Origin: an uncultured Coriobacteriaceae bacterium
Lineage (GTDB): Bacteria > Actinomycetota > Coriobacteriia > Coriobacteriales > Coriobacteriaceae
Reading direction: 5' to 3'
DNA: 64,000 bases
Assembly: GCA_944320725.1 (NCBI GenBank)
Contig: CALUIM010000014.1
Location: 1-64,000 of the forward strand
In this document: one piece after another, positions 43,890 to 63,972 of the stretch
Layout: each line of letters starts with the position of its first letter
Position numbering within the stretch: the first letter of the stretch is position 1
The notes under the pieces: model-generated
What the model was told of the DNA's origin: nothing
Seen by the model: only the letters and a program-made list of their open reading frames with translations
The model's database searches: none
Made by a program: the position numbers and the translations under genes

Positions 43890-44291
43890 GTGCATGAGAT
43901 GAGCGTCGTCTCCGGCATTCTCGAAAGCGTCATTCCCGTTGCCCGCGAGGCGGGGGCGTCGCGTGTGTGCACGGTGCATCTTCGTATCGGCGACATGCGC
44001 GAGGTTGTTCCCGAGGCGATGGAGCTTGCGTGGGAGGTGCTGAGCGAGGAGGATCCCCTCACGCTTGGCTGCACGTTCACCGTCGAAGAGGTGCGTCCGC
44101 GCAGTCGCTGCCTTGCCTGCGGCGCAATGTTTCCACACGATCGCTTCCATTGCCGCTGCCCCGAGTGCGGTAGCGCGGAGACCGAGCTCATGGCCGGCCG
44201 CGAGCTCGATATCATCTCAATTGAAATCGAAACGCCCGACGACAACGACAAGATGGGAACGGGTCAAAACCCGTCGGTGTCTGCGTTGTAG
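43890..44291 (+). CDS. hypA: Hydrogenase/urease nickel incorporation protein HypA
   Basis: This 133-residue metallochaperone delivers nickel during [NiFe]-hydrogenase maturation. The N-terminal MHEMSVV includes the invariant His2 nickel ligand, which fixes GTG 43890 as the start. The zinc finger is CLACGAMFP and CPECGS near residue 73-93. A C-terminal extension of about 15 residues (DKMGTGQNPS) goes beyond the usual end. It is 9 bp after tatC and 36 bp before hypB, forming a tat-hyp cluster; no hydrogenase structural gene or other hyp gene is in the window. Confidence 0.93.
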   Translation: MHEMSVVSGILESVIPVAREAGASRVCTVHLRIGDMREVVPEAMELAWEVLSEEDPLTLGCTFTVEEVRPRSRCLACGAMFPHDRFHCRCPECGSAETELMAGRELDIISIEIETPDDNDKMGTGQNPSVSAL

Positions 44292-44327: not shown

Positions 44328-45005
44328 ATGTCCGAGCAAACGCTCACCATCGAAAGCCCTATTCTGAATCGAAACGAGCGCTTGGCACAGCAGCTGCGCG
44401 AGCGCTTCCGTGCGAGCGGCACTTACGTGGTCAACGTGCTCTCGAGCCCCGGATCGGGCAAGACCTCGACGATCCTCGCCACGAACGAGCGTCTGCGCGA
44501 CCGGTATCGCGCGGCCGTGATCGAGGGCGATATCGCCTCCGATGTCGATGCGCAAACCATGAAGGAAGCGGGGCTGCCGGCGGTGCAGATTAACACCGGC
44601 GGACTGTGCCACCTTGAAGGCAATGTGATCTCGCAGGCAGTCGACGCGCTCGACGCCGGCGTTGGGCTCGAGCATATCGACATCATCTTTATCGAGAACG
44701 TGGGCAACCTCGTGTGCCCCGTGGATTTCGACCTGGGCGAAAACCTTGCGGTGATGATTTTGTCTGTGCCCGAGGGCGACGACAAGCCGGTTAAGTATCC
44801 GGGCATTTTCCAGCATGCCGGCGCGCAGCTTCTCAATAAGGTCGATGTTGCTCCTGCATTCGATTTCGATCTGGATGCCTATCATTCCGTGCTTGACGAG
44901 CTCAATCCGCGCGCCCCGCGCTTCGCGGTGAGTGCACGCACGGGCGAGGGCATGGACGCTTGGTGCGCATGGCTGGCGGAGCAAATCGAGGCTGCTCGCG
45001 CGTAG
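44328..45005 (+). CDS. hypB: Hydrogenase nickel incorporation GTPase HypB
   Basis: This 225-residue SIMIBI-class GTPase drives nickel insertion with HypA. The P-loop VLSSPGSGKTSTIL (near residue 40), EGDIASDVDAQTM, the metal-site CHLEG segment in NTGGLCHLEGNVISQAV and the FIENVGNLVCP motif are all present. Most HypB have CHLDA at this place. There is no His-rich nickel-storage stretch at the N-terminus; interestingly, a His/Cys-rich tail appears on another protein in this window (60662). AAAGGAGCACAGG precedes ATG 44328. It is in an operon with hypA. Confidence 0.93.
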   Translation: MSEQTLTIESPILNRNERLAQQLRERFRASGTYVVNVLSSPGSGKTSTILATNERLRDRYRAAVIEGDIASDVDAQTMKEAGLPAVQINTGGLCHLEGNVISQAVDALDAGVGLEHIDIIFIENVGNLVCPVDFDLGENLAVMILSVPEGDDKPVKYPGIFQHAGAQLLNKVDVAPAFDFDLDAYHSVLDELNPRAPRFAVSARTGEGMDAWCAWLAEQIEAARA

Positions 45006-45049
45006 CGAGGCCGCGTGCTGCGTTGGTGACGACAGGGGGGGGCAGACAG

Positions 45050-45391
45050 GTGAACATCCAGATTTTCGGCACCAAAAAGAGCTTCGATACGAAGAAGGCG
45101 CAGCGATACTTCAAAGAACGGCGTATCAAATTCCAGTTCATCGATCTGGCGCAAAAGGATATGAGCAAAGGCGAGCTCCAGGCGGTCATGCGCGCCGTGG
45201 GCGGCATCGATGCGGTGATCGACCCCGATGCTCGCGATCAAGACACCGTGGCGCTGATTACCTATCTCGCCGAGAGCCAGAAGTTCGAAAAGCTGCTTGA
45301 GAACCAGCAGGTGCTACGCCAGCCCATAGTCCGCAATGGCCGTCAGGCGACAGTGGGCTATGAACCCGATGTCTGGAAGACGTGGGAGTAG
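45050..45391 (+). CDS. ArsC/Spx-family protein lacking all cysteines
   Basis: This 113-residue protein begins NIQIFGTKKSFDTKKAQRYF and contains DLAQKDMSKGEL and the late RQPIVRNGRQATVGY, the arsenate-reductase/YffB thioredoxin-like fold pattern. In family members the position at KKSFD is a catalytic cysteine (KxCDTxKKA); here it is Ser, and the protein has no Cys at all. It therefore cannot act as a thiol reductase and is more likely a binding or regulatory relative, as Spx is to RNA polymerase. The start is GTG 45050 after a run of G. It follows hypB by 44 bp. Confidence 0.78.
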   Translation: MNIQIFGTKKSFDTKKAQRYFKERRIKFQFIDLAQKDMSKGELQAVMRAVGGIDAVIDPDARDQDTVALITYLAESQKFEKLLENQQVLRQPIVRNGRQATVGYEPDVWKTWE

Positions 45392-59025: not shown

Positions 59026-59610
59026 ATGGAGATCATCGTATCGGGACGCAAGACCACGGTAACCGATGCCCTGCGCGCTCATGTTGACGAGAAGATCGGC
59101 GAGGCCCTCAAAGTTTTTGACATCGAGCCCATGACCTGCGACGTCGTACTTCGTTATGAGAAGAACCCTGCAAATCCCAAGCCGGCAATCGTTGAGGTTA
59201 CGGTGCGCGCCCGCGGCGCGGTGATTCGCGTGGCAGAGCATGGCGAGGACATGTACTCGGCCATCGATATGTCGGCCGACAAGGTGACCCGCCAGCTGCG
59301 CAAGTACAAGACCAAGGTGATCGACAATCGTCAGCAGGGCGCCTCTGCTGCCGAGGTTGCGCCTGTCGAGCGCGTTGATGATCTGGCCGACCTCCTCATC
59401 CCCGAGGAAGAAGACGATCAGCTCGTGCGCGAGAAGATCATTGAGATCACGCCCATGACCGAAGAGCAGGCGCTCATCCAGACCGATCTGCTGGGGCACG
59501 ACTTCTATGTCTTCGAGAATGCCACCACCGGCCTCATCAATGTGGTGTATCACCGTAAGAATGGTGGATATGGCATCATCAAGCCGAAGATTGAGGCGCT
59601 TGACGAGTAA
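59026..59610 (+). CDS. hpf: Ribosome hibernation-promoting factor, long form
   Basis: The protein (194 residues) has an N-terminal ribosome-binding domain (IIVSGRKTTVTDALRAHVDEKIGEAL ... MYSAIDMSADKVTRQLRKYKTK), a flexible acidic linker and a C-terminal dimerisation domain (MTEEQALIQTDLLGHDFYVFENATTGLINVVYHRKNGGYGIIKP). Long HPFs join two 70S ribosomes into inactive 100S particles in stationary phase. AAAAGGAG precedes the ATG. A terminator follows. A structured RNA candidate lies two genes upstream. Confidence 0.95.
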   Translation: MEIIVSGRKTTVTDALRAHVDEKIGEALKVFDIEPMTCDVVLRYEKNPANPKPAIVEVTVRARGAVIRVAEHGEDMYSAIDMSADKVTRQLRKYKTKVIDNRQQGASAAEVAPVERVDDLADLLIPEEEDDQLVREKIIEITPMTEEQALIQTDLLGHDFYVFENATTGLINVVYHRKNGGYGIIKPKIEALDE

Positions 59611-59686: not shown

Positions 59687-60637
59687 ATGGCTGAGCACTC
59701 TGCCTCCGGTCACGCAAACCGTTACCGCATCGTGGTGGATACCTGCGCCGATCTCACGCCCGAGATCGCCGCGACTCTCGATGTGGATATCCTCGGGTTC
59801 CCGTATATCGTCGATGGCGTCGAGAAGACCGACGACATCTGGACCTCGATTACGCCCAAGGAGTTCTACGATCAGATCCGCTCCGGTGTGAAGATGTCCA
59901 CGTCGGCCATCTCGCTCGGCCGTTATCTGGAGTTCTTCACACAGTGCGCCGAGGAGGGCACGCCTACGGTGTATCTGTGCTTCACGAGTGCGCTCTCGTC
60001 GAGCTATGAGTTTGCGTGCCAGGCCGCCGAGCAGGTGCGCACCCAGTATCCCGCGTTCGAGCTCTACGTGGTAGACAACGCGCTGCCTTGTGCCTGCGGC
60101 GAGCTGCTGGCGCTCGAGGCGGTACGCCAGCGCGCCAACGGACTTTCCGCCGCTGAGCTCGCGGCATGGGCAGACGAGGCGAAGACGTACGTGCACGGGT
60201 ACTTTACCCTGGACAGCCTCGACTCGCTTGCTGCCGGCGGGCGCATCCCGCCTGCGGCGGCGCAGCTCTCCGCCAAGCTCGATGTGAAGGCATCGCTTTC
60301 GTTTGATCTGGCAGGCTCGCTCTCGCTCACGGGCGTGAGCCGCGGCCGCAAGAAGGCGCTCAAGGGCCTCGTCAAGTCGTTCCAAGAAAACTATGTGCTC
60401 GACACGTCGATGCCGCTCACCATCGTGACCGCCGATGCCGAGAAGGACGGCGACTGGGTGGAGGCTGCGGTGCGCAAGGAGCCGGGGTGCGCCGATCTCA
60501 CCATCATCCGCGGTTCGGTGGGACCCACCATCGGTGCCCACGTGGGTCCGGGTATGGTCGCCCTCATTTTCTGGGGCAAGAACCGTGCCGAGAAGATTTC
60601 GCTTTCAGACCGTATCGCCCGCCGCGTTCGCAGCTAA
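59687..60637 (+). CDS. DegV-family fatty-acid-binding protein
   Basis: DegV (FakB-type) proteins bind fatty acids and, with FakA kinase, feed exogenous fatty acids into phospholipids. This 316-residue protein has RIVVDTCADLTPEIA near residue 14, TSAISLGRYLEFF, the FTSALSSSYEFA segment near 105 that usually surrounds the lipid-binding Ser, VVDNALPCACG and SVGPTIGAHVGPG near 290. AAAGGTGA precedes the ATG. It is followed by a dehydrogenase 25 bp later, with no fakA gene in the window. Confidence 0.9.
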   Translation: MAEHSASGHANRYRIVVDTCADLTPEIAATLDVDILGFPYIVDGVEKTDDIWTSITPKEFYDQIRSGVKMSTSAISLGRYLEFFTQCAEEGTPTVYLCFTSALSSSYEFACQAAEQVRTQYPAFELYVVDNALPCACGELLALEAVRQRANGLSAAELAAWADEAKTYVHGYFTLDSLDSLAAGGRIPPAAAQLSAKLDVKASLSFDLAGSLSLTGVSRGRKKALKGLVKSFQENYVLDTSMPLTIVTADAEKDGDWVEAAVRKEPGCADLTIIRGSVGPTIGAHVGPGMVALIFWGKNRAEKISLSDRIARRVRS

Positions 60638-60661: not shown

Positions 60662-61708
60662 ATGCAGAAGGTAGCGTTTATCGGAACCGGCATCATGGGC
60701 GCGCCCATCGCGGGGCACATCCTCGATGCGGGGTATCCGCTCACCGTGTTCAACCGCACACCCGAGAAGGCGCAGGGCCTCATTGAGCGCGGCGCGGTGT
60801 GGGCCGAGACCGCCGCGGACGCCGCGCGCGACGCCGACGTTGTGTTCACGATGGTGGGGTATCCCGAGGATGTCGAGGAGCTCTACCTGGCCGGTGCCGG
60901 CCTCATTGCCGCCTCGAAGCCCGGTGCCTACCTCATCGATCTCACGACGAGCGCGCCGTCGCTTGCGCGCGATATCGCCGAGGCATCGGCGGTTGAGGGC
61001 CGTGTCGCTTTCGACTGCCCGGTGACGGGCGGCGAGACAGGTGCCATCGCGGGGACGCTCACCGCGATCGTTGGCGCCACCGAGCAAACGATCGAGCCGG
61101 TCCGCGCGATTCTCGAGACGTTCACCTCGAAGATCTTCTGCTTCGGCCGCGCCGGGCAGGGACAGGCTGCCAAGCTTGCCAACCAGGTTGCGCTTGCCTC
61201 GTCGATGGTGGGCATGGCCGACGCGCTCTCGTTTGCCCAGCAGGAGGGGCTCGATCTGGCGCAGACGCGCGAGATGATCCTCGGCGGCACGGGCGCCTCG
61301 GGCGTGCTCGAGCAGTTGGCGCCTAAGGCGCTCGACGGCGACTGGAAGCCCGGCTTCATGGTCAAGCACTTCCTGAAGGACCTGGGCCTTGCGCTGGCAG
61401 ATGCCGAGGAGCGCGAGATCGCGCTGCCGGGCGCCGATACCGCGTTTGCCCTCTACGACATGCTCGATGCCATCGGCGGTGCCGAGTTGGGCACGCAGGC
61501 CATTACGTTGCTCTACCAGGAGGAAGCCGAGGCGGTTGCCGCGGGTCTCGACTGGTCGCTCTACACCAATGCCCATGAGCACGACGATGCATGCGGCTGC
61601 GGTCACGACCATGGCGACCACGATCACGAGTGCACCTGCGGTCATCATCATGGCGATGGCGACCACGAGTGCACCTGCGGCGAGGGCCATCACCACCACG
61701 GGGAGTAG
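60662..61708 (+). CDS. 3-hydroxyisobutyrate dehydrogenase-like NAD(P)-dependent enzyme with His/Cys-rich repeat tail
   Basis: Residues 1-300 are a complete 6-phosphogluconate/3-hydroxyisobutyrate-type dehydrogenase: Rossmann start KVAFIGTGIMGAPIA, DCPVTGGETGA near residue 119, GQGQAAKLANQ near 165 with the catalytic Lys region, and KDLGLALADA near 239. Such enzymes oxidise or reduce 2- or 3-hydroxy acids. The last 44 residues (305-348) contain 14 His and 6 Cys, arranged as three near-repeats of about 13 residues starting CxCG (CGCGHDHGDHDHE, CTCGHHHGDGDHE, CTCGEGHHHHGE). This tail should bind nickel, zinc or another soft metal and is not part of the family. AAGGAG precedes the ATG. Substrate is unknown. 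Confidence 0.85.
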   Translation: MQKVAFIGTGIMGAPIAGHILDAGYPLTVFNRTPEKAQGLIERGAVWAETAADAARDADVVFTMVGYPEDVEELYLAGAGLIAASKPGAYLIDLTTSAPSLARDIAEASAVEGRVAFDCPVTGGETGAIAGTLTAIVGATEQTIEPVRAILETFTSKIFCFGRAGQGQAAKLANQVALASSMVGMADALSFAQQEGLDLAQTREMILGGTGASGVLEQLAPKALDGDWKPGFMVKHFLKDLGLALADAEEREIALPGADTAFALYDMLDAIGGAELGTQAITLLYQEEAEAVAAGLDWSLYTNAHEHDDACGCGHDHGDHDHECTCGHHHGDGDHECTCGEGHHHHGE

Positions 61709-61714
61709 CGCCGC

Positions 61715-62173
61715 ATGACCGATCCGGCATTCATCATCTGTTTCGCCCTGCTGTTCGTCTTTAGCATCTATATTGGGTTTGCCATCGGCAACCGCGCGGG
61801 CGAGCACGCGCTCACCAACCGTGCGTACTGGCTCTATAACGCTGCAGCGATTGCAATCTGCGTACTCGTCACGGCGTTTGTGCCCCTGCCGGCGATGCTC
61901 TACGCAACGCCGTTGGGGTTGCTGGCAGGCGCGCTCATGGGGCTCAAGATGGGCTTTGGCGAGTCGATCGGCCCGTGGAAGATGGTCGATCGGTTCTTCA
62001 ATCGCAATCGTGGGCATCAGCGCACAACCGAGACGGGGAGCGGTCGTGCGCGCCGCGAGCGCCGGCGCACCGGCGAGCGCGAGCCCGATCTTATTTCGGT
62101 CGAATCTCGTAACACTACATCGCGTGCGGGGCAGCAGGACGCTTCCGCAGCAAACAAGCGCAAGAAGAGGTAG
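61715..62173 (+). CDS. Hypothetical membrane protein with basic tail
   Basis: This 152-residue protein has three hydrophobic segments (FIICFALLFVFSIYIGFAIG, LYNAAAIAICVLVTAFV and MLYATPLGLLAGALMGLKMG) and then a 60-residue hydrophilic Arg/Thr/Ser-rich C-terminus ending NKRKKR. The GGGGAG ribosome-binding site lies in the end of the preceding gene, whose stop is 6 bp before the ATG, so the genes are co-transcribed. A positively charged cytosolic tail suggests RNA, DNA or lipid contact. The family was not recognised. Confidence 0.7.
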   Translation: MTDPAFIICFALLFVFSIYIGFAIGNRAGEHALTNRAYWLYNAAAIAICVLVTAFVPLPAMLYATPLGLLAGALMGLKMGFGESIGPWKMVDRFFNRNRGHQRTTETGSGRARRERRRTGEREPDLISVESRNTTSRAGQQDASAANKRKKR

Positions 62174-62181
62174 GTACGTTT

Positions 62182-62877
62182 ATGGCAGAACAGAAGGAAC
62201 GCGAGCTCACACAGGAGGAAGCCGAGCAGCTGGGCAAGATCGAGCACGACGCCGATGCCCTGGCCGCCCTCATCGAGGATCTGGGCAGCTCGAGCAGGCG
62301 CAAACGTCAGCTTGCAGCACGCGTCGTGGCGCTCGTGGCAGAGCGCGATGCGGAGCTGCTTGCGCCCTATATCTCCGAGCTCATCGATGCCCTCTATCGG
62401 CCCGAGGCGCAGACGCGCTGGGAGGTGCTCGACGCGCTCGTGATCATGGTTCCCAACCATGCGAAGGAGATCGGCGCGGCATTCGAGGGTGCCGAGGCGG
62501 CGCTGTTCGACGAGCTCTCCTCGACGCTTCGTCTCTCGGCGTTCACCCTGCTTACCACCTGGGGTGCTACGGAGCGCGGCCGCTCCAAGAAGGTGTGGCC
62601 CGTGATCGATGAGGCTATCCAGTGCTATCACGGCGACCTTGAGTATCGCGATATGCTCGCCTGCTTGCACGCATTTGCCACGGGCAAGATCTCGGGCGAT
62701 GTAGCCGCCGAGCTTGCCGGTCGCTTGCAGTTCGATGCGCAAAACGGCAAGGGTGCCTACCTCAAGGCGCGCTCGGCCGAGATTTACGACATGCTCGTCA
62801 AGCGATTCAAACTCGAGGCGCCCAAGCGCCGTGTGCGCGCCGCGGCGACCAGCGACGACGTGGACGACGAGGAGTAA
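62182..62877 (+). CDS. Hypothetical HEAT-like repeat protein
   Basis: The 231-residue protein is entirely helical, with repeated Ala/Leu/Glu helix pairs (IEDLGSSSRRKRQLAARVVALVAERDAELLAPYISELIDALYRPEAQTRWEVLDALVIM in segments) typical of HEAT/armadillo folds, followed by DMLVKRFKLEAPKRRV and an acidic end. No membrane segment or catalytic motif is seen. AGAGGTAGG precedes the ATG; it is 8 bp after the membrane protein and 3 bp before isocitrate dehydrogenase, so all four genes form an operon. A scaffold role is inferred from fold only. Confidence 0.72.
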   Translation: MAEQKERELTQEEAEQLGKIEHDADALAALIEDLGSSSRRKRQLAARVVALVAERDAELLAPYISELIDALYRPEAQTRWEVLDALVIMVPNHAKEIGAAFEGAEAALFDELSSTLRLSAFTLLTTWGATERGRSKKVWPVIDEAIQCYHGDLEYRDMLACLHAFATGKISGDVAAELAGRLQFDAQNGKGAYLKARSAEIYDMLVKRFKLEAPKRRVRAAATSDDVDDEE

Positions 62878-62880
62878 CCC

Positions 62881-63972
62881 ATGGCGCATGACGTGGTGCT
62901 CATTCCCGGTGACGGCATAGGCCCCGAGATCTGCGACGCCATGTGCCGCGTGGTGGACGCTGCCGGCGCGGATATTGCTTGGCATGAGGTCGAGGCGGGC
63001 GCCGGTGCCATCGAGCACTATGGTACGCCGCTGCCGCCGCAGGTGATTGATGCGGTGCGCGAGGTGGGCGTTGCCATCAAGGGTCCGGTGACCACGCCGG
63101 TGGGCACGGGGTTCCGCAGCATCAACGTGGCGCTGCGCCAGGAGTTTGATCTCTATGCTTGCGTGCGTCCCTGCCATTCGCTTCCCGGCGACGGGTCGCG
63201 CTATCGGGATATCGACCTCGTGGTGATTCGCGAGAACACCGAGGATCTCTATGCGGGTATCGAGTTCGAGCCCGATGATCCGGCGGTCGAGCGTCTCGGC
63301 GAGCTTATCGAGGCGTCGGGACAGCGGCGCATGAAGGCGGGTTCCGCCATCTCCATCAAGCCTATCTCGCCGGAGGGCTCGCGGCGCATCGTGCGCTATG
63401 CTTTCGAGTATGCGCGGAGCCACGGCCGCCGCAAGGTGACCGCGGTGCATAAGGCGAACATCATGAAGGCCACGGACGGGCTGTTCTTGCGCATTGCGCG
63501 CGAGGTTGCGGCAGACTACCCCGACATCGCATTTGAAGACAAGATCGTTGACGCTGCCTGCATGGGGCTCGTTCAGCATCCCGAGGACTTCGATGTCCTC
63601 GTACTGCCTAATCTGTACGGCGATATCGTCTCCGATTTGTGTGCGGGGCTTGTAGGCGGGCTCGGCATGGCGCCGGGTGCCAATATGGGCGAGGGGTGCG
63701 CCGTCTTCGAGGCAACGCATGGCTCGGCGCCTGATATCGCGGGTAAGGATATCGCCAACCCCACCGCCGAGATTCTTTCTGCCGCGATGCTGCTCGACTA
63801 TCTGGGCGAGACAGATGCCGCGCAACGCGTGCGCAGCGCGGTTGCCGCAACACTTGCTGCCGGCGAGCAGGTAACTGCCGATGTGCGCCGTGCGCTCACG
63901 GGGTCTACCGAGGGCGCAGTAGGCACGCGCGCGTTTGCCGACGCCGTGATCGCCCATATCGCGCGGGCATAA
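62881..63972 (+). CDS. NAD-dependent isocitrate/isopropylmalate dehydrogenase family protein
   Basis: This 363-residue enzyme has the isocitrate/3-isopropylmalate dehydrogenase order: LIPGDGIGPEICDAM near residue 7, IKGPVTTPVGTGFRSINVALRQEFDLYACVRP near 72, VIRENTEDLYAGIE near 118, KANIMK near 195, the YGDIVSDLCAGLVGGLGMAPGANM catalytic Asp region near 245 and EATHGSAPDIAGK near 278. Serine-x-Asn in the RSINVALR region and ENTEDLYAG favour NAD-isocitrate dehydrogenase (eukaryotic IDH3-like) over LeuB. GAGGAG precedes the ATG. In an anaerobe it would serve 2-oxoglutarate synthesis. Its stop lies 28 bp before the window end. Confidence 0.88.
   Translation: MAHDVVLIPGDGIGPEICDAMCRVVDAAGADIAWHEVEAGAGAIEHYGTPLPPQVIDAVREVGVAIKGPVTTPVGTGFRSINVALRQEFDLYACVRPCHSLPGDGSRYRDIDLVVIRENTEDLYAGIEFEPDDPAVERLGELIEASGQRRMKAGSAISIKPISPEGSRRIVRYAFEYARSHGRRKVTAVHKANIMKATDGLFLRIAREVAADYPDIAFEDKIVDAACMGLVQHPEDFDVLVLPNLYGDIVSDLCAGLVGGLGMAPGANMGEGCAVFEATHGSAPDIAGKDIANPTAEILSAAMLLDYLGETDAAQRVRSAVAATLAAGEQVTADVRRALTGSTEGAVGTRAFADAVIAHIARA

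Follow-up and report, generated by a model that had tools for sequence, protein, structure and literature searches.

The beta-hydroxyacid dehydrogenase encoded near the end of the analyzed sequence (a stretch of 64,000 nucleotides, hereafter the window) carries a His/Cys-rich C-terminal tail, which was present in 152 of the 177 orthologs inspected across the order (86%). By analogy with known metal-binding extensions, we regard it as on balance probable that this is a disordered, multi-site metal-binding tail on an active housekeeping dehydrogenase, and that the soluble enzyme would buffer or store metal, with zinc as the most likely candidate. The window belongs to a 2.07 Mb assembly in 20 contigs, from a genome of the Coriobacteriaceae (Collinsella/Enorma-type). 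The coordinates of the features are listed in Table 1.

Table 1. Features of the dehydrogenase locus and hydrogenase maturation genes within the window.
Feature	Position	Strand	Remarks
HypA gene	43890-44291		
HypB gene	44328-45005 (about)		TIGR00073 match
Ribosome hibernation factor (S30AE; HPF) gene, upstream	59026-59610	+	PF02482, PF16321; synteny
DegV-family gene, immediately upstream of the dehydrogenase	59687-60637	+	PF02645; synteny
NAD(P)-dependent beta-hydroxyacid dehydrogenase core, residues 1-293	60662-61540	+	Rossmann domain and all-helical domain, catalytic Lys171, NRT motif
Linker GLDWSLYTNAH... running to the tail	61541-61573	+	GLDW kept across the order, whether or not a tail follows
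His/Cys-rich tail HEHDDACGCGHDHGDHDHECTCGHHHGDGDHECTCGEGHHHHGE	61574-61705	+	44 residues; predicted disordered
Repeat unit 1 CGCGHDHGDHDHE	61592-61630	+	
Repeat unit 2 CTCGHHHGDGDHE	61631-61669	+	39-bp unit
Diverged repeat unit 3 CTCGEGHHHHGE	61670-61705	+	22/39 bases identical to unit 2 (over 61670-61708, stop included)
Dehydrogenase stop codon	61706-61708	+	TAG
Small probable membrane protein gene, downstream	61715-62173	+	Synteny in most of the family
HEAT-like repeat protein gene	62182-62877	+	Weak PF13513 match; synteny

Dehydrogenase core

The open reading frame (60662-61708, forward strand; 348 codons/residues) encodes a beta-hydroxyacid dehydrogenase in which both the cofactor motif and the catalytic motif are intact. 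The core matched PF03446 (E = 2.6e-45) and PF14833 (E = 1.1e-26), both above the cut-off, and membership in the HIBADH fold was indicated by the presence of both the N-terminal NAD(P)-binding and the C-terminal all-helical domain. The NRT motif is typical of NADP use. Twelve residues were invariant in 28 aligned sequences (G8, G10, M12, G13, R32, D118, P120, V121, G123, K171, N174 and Q175), among them the catalytic Lys (K171) and the D118, P120, V121 and G123 positions of the substrate-binding motif DxPV(T/S)GG. Because the catalytic motif is intact, the enzyme is predicted from its sequence to be active, and not a dead scaffold.

The best fold match was the L-serine 3-dehydrogenase of Pyrobaculum calidifontis (5xvh/3w6u; 41% identity), which shares fold, cofactor motif and catalytic Lys with the window protein, as do other beta-hydroxyacid dehydrogenases; the solved mutant of the Pyrobaculum enzyme is K170M. 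Among the fold matches, TM-scores normalized by target length reached 0.96. The match to the solved relatives (279-320 residues) covered the core only, however, and in homologs from other phyla the protein stops at around residue 290 and no tail follows. All NCBIfam equivalogs of the dehydrogenase family scored under their own cut-offs for the window protein, including those of 3-hydroxyisobutyrate dehydrogenase (TIGR01692, 181.6 bits against a cut-off of 291.6) and 2-hydroxy-3-oxopropionate reductase (TIGR01505, 217.1 against 340.75 bits), so that the name 3-hydroxyisobutyrate dehydrogenase, used in a first-pass annotation, was too specific.

Sequence and predicted structure of the tail

The tail lies in frame with the dehydrogenase and consists of CxCG...HE units; its translation agreed with the earlier count of 14 His and 6 Cys in the last 44 residues. 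The 39-bp repeats reported by the first-pass annotation were found at the positions given there, yet their description as clean was overstated: units 1 and 2 share just 30 of their 39 bases, which makes them diverged, not fresh, repeats. Among open frames of at least 100 codons, the tail was the window's richest 44-residue stretch in His and Cys (20 residues against a maximum of 14 elsewhere), and the other top scores apparently came from frames that are not real genes. When the whole genome was searched for such tails, the dehydrogenase was the single plausible coding-frame locus, with a second match on its antisense strand. In an AlphaFold2 model built on the 28-sequence alignment, pLDDT exceeded 90 across most of the core and fell to 37-67 from residue 301 onward, and the tail is thus predicted to be disordered next to a confidently modeled core.

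Distribution of the tail across the order

A single dehydrogenase ortholog per genome was found in all 67 genomes of the window's family (f1), and reading of every C-terminus revealed a tail (at least 6 His plus Cys; 48-107 residues counted from GLDW on) in 66 of them. The one exception, G043, ended in SRVHPGGDDADGVTAASAPERPEA. In another family of the same order (f2, probably Atopobiaceae-like), 83 of 104 inspected orthologs were tailed, as were 3 of 6 from other families. The possibility of chance or of a local sequencing or assembly artefact was ruled out, since orthologs in complete and isolate genomes are tailed as well. The first-pass annotation had also held that such tails do not occur on 3-hydroxyisobutyrate dehydrogenases, which is true of the outgroups from other phyla, whereas within this order tailed enzymes are the norm.

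When presence of the tail was mapped onto a FastTree phylogeny, 13 parsimony changes were required, against about 33 with shuffled labels, a pattern that fits an old gain followed by several losses; having been lost several times, the tail is dispensable in some lineages. To see whether the tail had moved to a different protein, 23 tail-less or weak-tailed genomes and 6 tailed controls were searched with a tail consensus; there was no match in the tail-less genomes, but the recovery of only 2 of the 6 controls shows a sensitivity too low to speak against such a move.

Individual tails varied widely in form. The longest in f1 included that of G057 (L118), with 103 residues past GLDW and 40 His, and that of G031 (L079), with 89 residues past GLDW, 25 His and 12 Cys, in a genome with neither HypA nor a hydrogenase match. 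Plain poly-His tails resembling a natural His-tag, with 7-9 consecutive His and no Cys, were observed in f2 genomes G112, G190, G191, G198 and G202 (loci L264, L263, L272, L218 and L217).

Gene neighborhood

At nearly all loci of the family the genes run in the sequence HPF, DegV, dehydrogenase, small membrane protein and HEAT-like protein, and in many cases an isocitrate-dehydrogenase-like gene comes next. This conserved neighborhood contains no gene for a metal transporter, metal regulator or metal chaperone, and the small membrane protein gave no Pfam match. In the window the run is closed by an isocitrate/isopropylmalate-dehydrogenase-like gene (62881-63972), which scored under all the NCBIfam equivalog cut-offs shown and is absent from that place in some relatives.

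The membrane-protein gene starts 6 bases past the dehydrogenase stop and shares its frame, with only TAG CGC CGC between the two (junction at 61706-61717). The shared frame recurred in many relatives, but not in the C. aerofaciens-type group. In G126 (L262:195-1670) no stop separates the tailed dehydrogenase from the membrane protein, and the two form one open frame, in which the downstream gene still has a Shine-Dalgarno-like sequence and a GTG start. The shared frame of the window and the G126 fusion hint at readthrough of the stop codon into the membrane-protein gene; as a conserved mechanism this was ruled out, given that the frame relation is lost in the C. aerofaciens-type group (offset of 1082 bases).

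Length variation and selection on His and Cys

The suggestion that the repeat array can expand or shrink was borne out across orthologs, where tails ranged from 21 to 107 residues and HEC-to-HEC spacing was mostly 12-14 residues. Composition was nonetheless retained, with H, C, D, E and G making up 81-85% of the tail and CxCG, CCGG and CCHG as motifs. C. aerofaciens-type tails could be aligned for 24 genomes; in these, 2 of the 528 residues at His/Cys positions departed from the consensus, while 13 of the 22 His/Cys codons varied synonymously and 10 of 28 other tail positions had changed (Fisher p = 0.045 against His/Cys). Pairwise NG86 dN/dS values, which are non-independent, were about 0.003 for His/Cys, 0.116 for other tail sites and 0.041 for the core. 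The seven His/Cys sites of the core likewise never change. Taken alone, the contrast between His/Cys and other tail sites is suggestive; combined with the finding that tails throughout the order keep their composition while their length changes, it makes a strong case, and the substitution patterns indicate that the tail His and Cys are under purifying selection.

These patterns bear on two alternatives to a metal-holding tail. A neutral, functionless expansion of low-complexity repeats would agree with length shifts by repeat units and with the repeated losses; it is nevertheless highly improbable, considering that His and Cys are hardly ever replaced although synonymous changes abound, and that most orthologs have kept the tail over deep divergence. 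The tail might instead act as a metal-responsive or redox switch, in which metal binding or tail oxidation alters how the dehydrogenase multimerises, how active it is or which partners it binds. The intact catalytic residues of the carrier, the capacity of Cys-rich tails to form disulfides and the single open frame shared by the tailed enzyme and its membrane-protein neighbor in G126 all speak for such a switch; however, the wide variation in length and spacing and the presence of the same core in tail-less orthologs argue against a precise allosteric contact, and we consider this explanation unlikely.

Relationship with HypA and [NiFe] hydrogenase

HypA and HypB are encoded 16-17 kb upstream of the dehydrogenase in the window, and many relatives have a HypA gene at a distance of about 12-25 kb from the dehydrogenase gene. 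As the first-pass annotation had noticed, the local HypB has no His stretch, and sequence reading together with its TIGR00073 match revealed no N-terminal extension. An Spx/ArsC-like gene (44960-45391) sits right behind HypB, with an open frame overlapping the HypB end. The SlyD/SlpA-class FKBPs in the family genomes read scored under the SlyD equivalog cut-off and lacked a metal tail at the C-terminus. A nickel store that replaces both the HypB His stretch and the SlyD-type FKBP tail, and that feeds [NiFe]-hydrogenase maturation, would account for these absences and for the proximity of the genes.

The distribution of the tail runs counter to this link, which the first-pass annotation had proposed. 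Of the 58 orthologs from genomes lacking HypA, 54 were tailed, compared with 98 of 119 from genomes carrying it. The search with PF00374 for [NiFe] hydrogenase was negative in 151 genomes (8 of f1, 140 of f2 and 3 others); all 140 f2 genomes were thus without a match, despite the tails of most f2 orthologs, and the 8 f1 genomes all retained the tail. Conversely, HypA and a strong match to [NiFe] hydrogenase are both present in the tail-less G043. No positive association of the tail with HypA or PF00374 was detected in presence/absence across orthologs, and a hydrogenase-dedicated nickel store is accordingly very unlikely. Most f1 matches to PF00374 were weak (E = 1e-11 to 1e-15); group-4 or complex-I-like proteins may account for them. 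Since the tail persists without HypA and [NiFe] hydrogenase, a general metal fits better than nickel destined for hydrogenase.

Many f2 genomes carry HypA without a PF00374 match, where HypA may serve another nickel enzyme. A buffer of nickel or cobalt for other enzymes, such as lactate racemase, glyoxalase, urease or cobalamin-related ones, would be in line with this observation and with similar His-rich stretches on nickel and cobalt proteins (PMC6821194, PMC7055735). On the other hand, the high Cys content and the CxCG/CCGG motifs suit zinc or copper(I) at least equally, and the neighborhood holds no nickel or cobalt gene, leaving little probability for this option.

Comparison with known metal-binding tails and proposed function

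The comparison with metallochaperone tails made by the first-pass annotation was supported. In both composition and predicted disorder, the tail is a C-terminal His/Cys-rich extension of the SlyD/HspA type and, by analogy, may work like those tails, on a carrier belonging to neither family. The SlyD tail of E. coli and H. pylori is likewise C-terminal and His/Cys-rich and binds nickel and zinc at several sites; each H. pylori SlyD protein binds 2.4 Ni or 3.3 Zn (PMC7055735). The dehydrogenase differs from it in being another carrier, with no sequence relation and a tail uncoupled from hydrogenase genes, in a family whose own SlyD/SlpA-type FKBP is without such a tail. In Helicobacter HspA (GroES), a His/Cys-rich extension of similar composition binds nickel or zinc, and, as here, it is confined to a single bacterial lineage and sits on a housekeeping protein (PMC4671568); that carrier is a chaperonin with a function tied to nickel and hydrogenase, whereas the present one is a metabolic dehydrogenase. 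The His-rich metal-binding stretch of HypB also resides on a metal-handling protein, but it is N-terminal, on a GTPase. No paper on the dehydrogenase tail was found in a search of the open full-text literature.

According to the favored reading, that of a metal buffer or store, the His, Cys and acidic side chains of the tail would coordinate several divalent metal ions at moderate affinity, and the soluble, probably multimeric, enzyme would double as an intracellular reservoir. The metal would most likely be zinc, or divalent metal in general. The array would lengthen and shorten by units of 12-14 residues, with selection keeping the ligand residues and not their exact spacing. Evidence against this reading comes from the lack of metal genes in the neighborhood, from the repeated losses of the tail and from the short, Cys-free poly-His tails of some f2 orthologs. 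We infer metal binding itself, the identity of the metal, a role in buffering rather than in catalysis or regulation, and the abundance and multimeric state of the enzyme. A broader and rather doubtful proposal is that, in this order of gut and oral bacteria, one core metabolic enzyme would be the main protein-borne metal reservoir, its ancestral, repeat-built tail setting capacity by its length and releasing metal possibly in step with the redox state of the enzyme.

Intracellular storage of zinc or nickel in gut bacteria such as Collinsella has hardly been described. If the favored reading is true, its conserved tail would make this core dehydrogenase a candidate metal store, and the untagged native enzyme would be expected to bind nickel resin. 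His-rich tails should not be taken as hydrogenase-linked by default.
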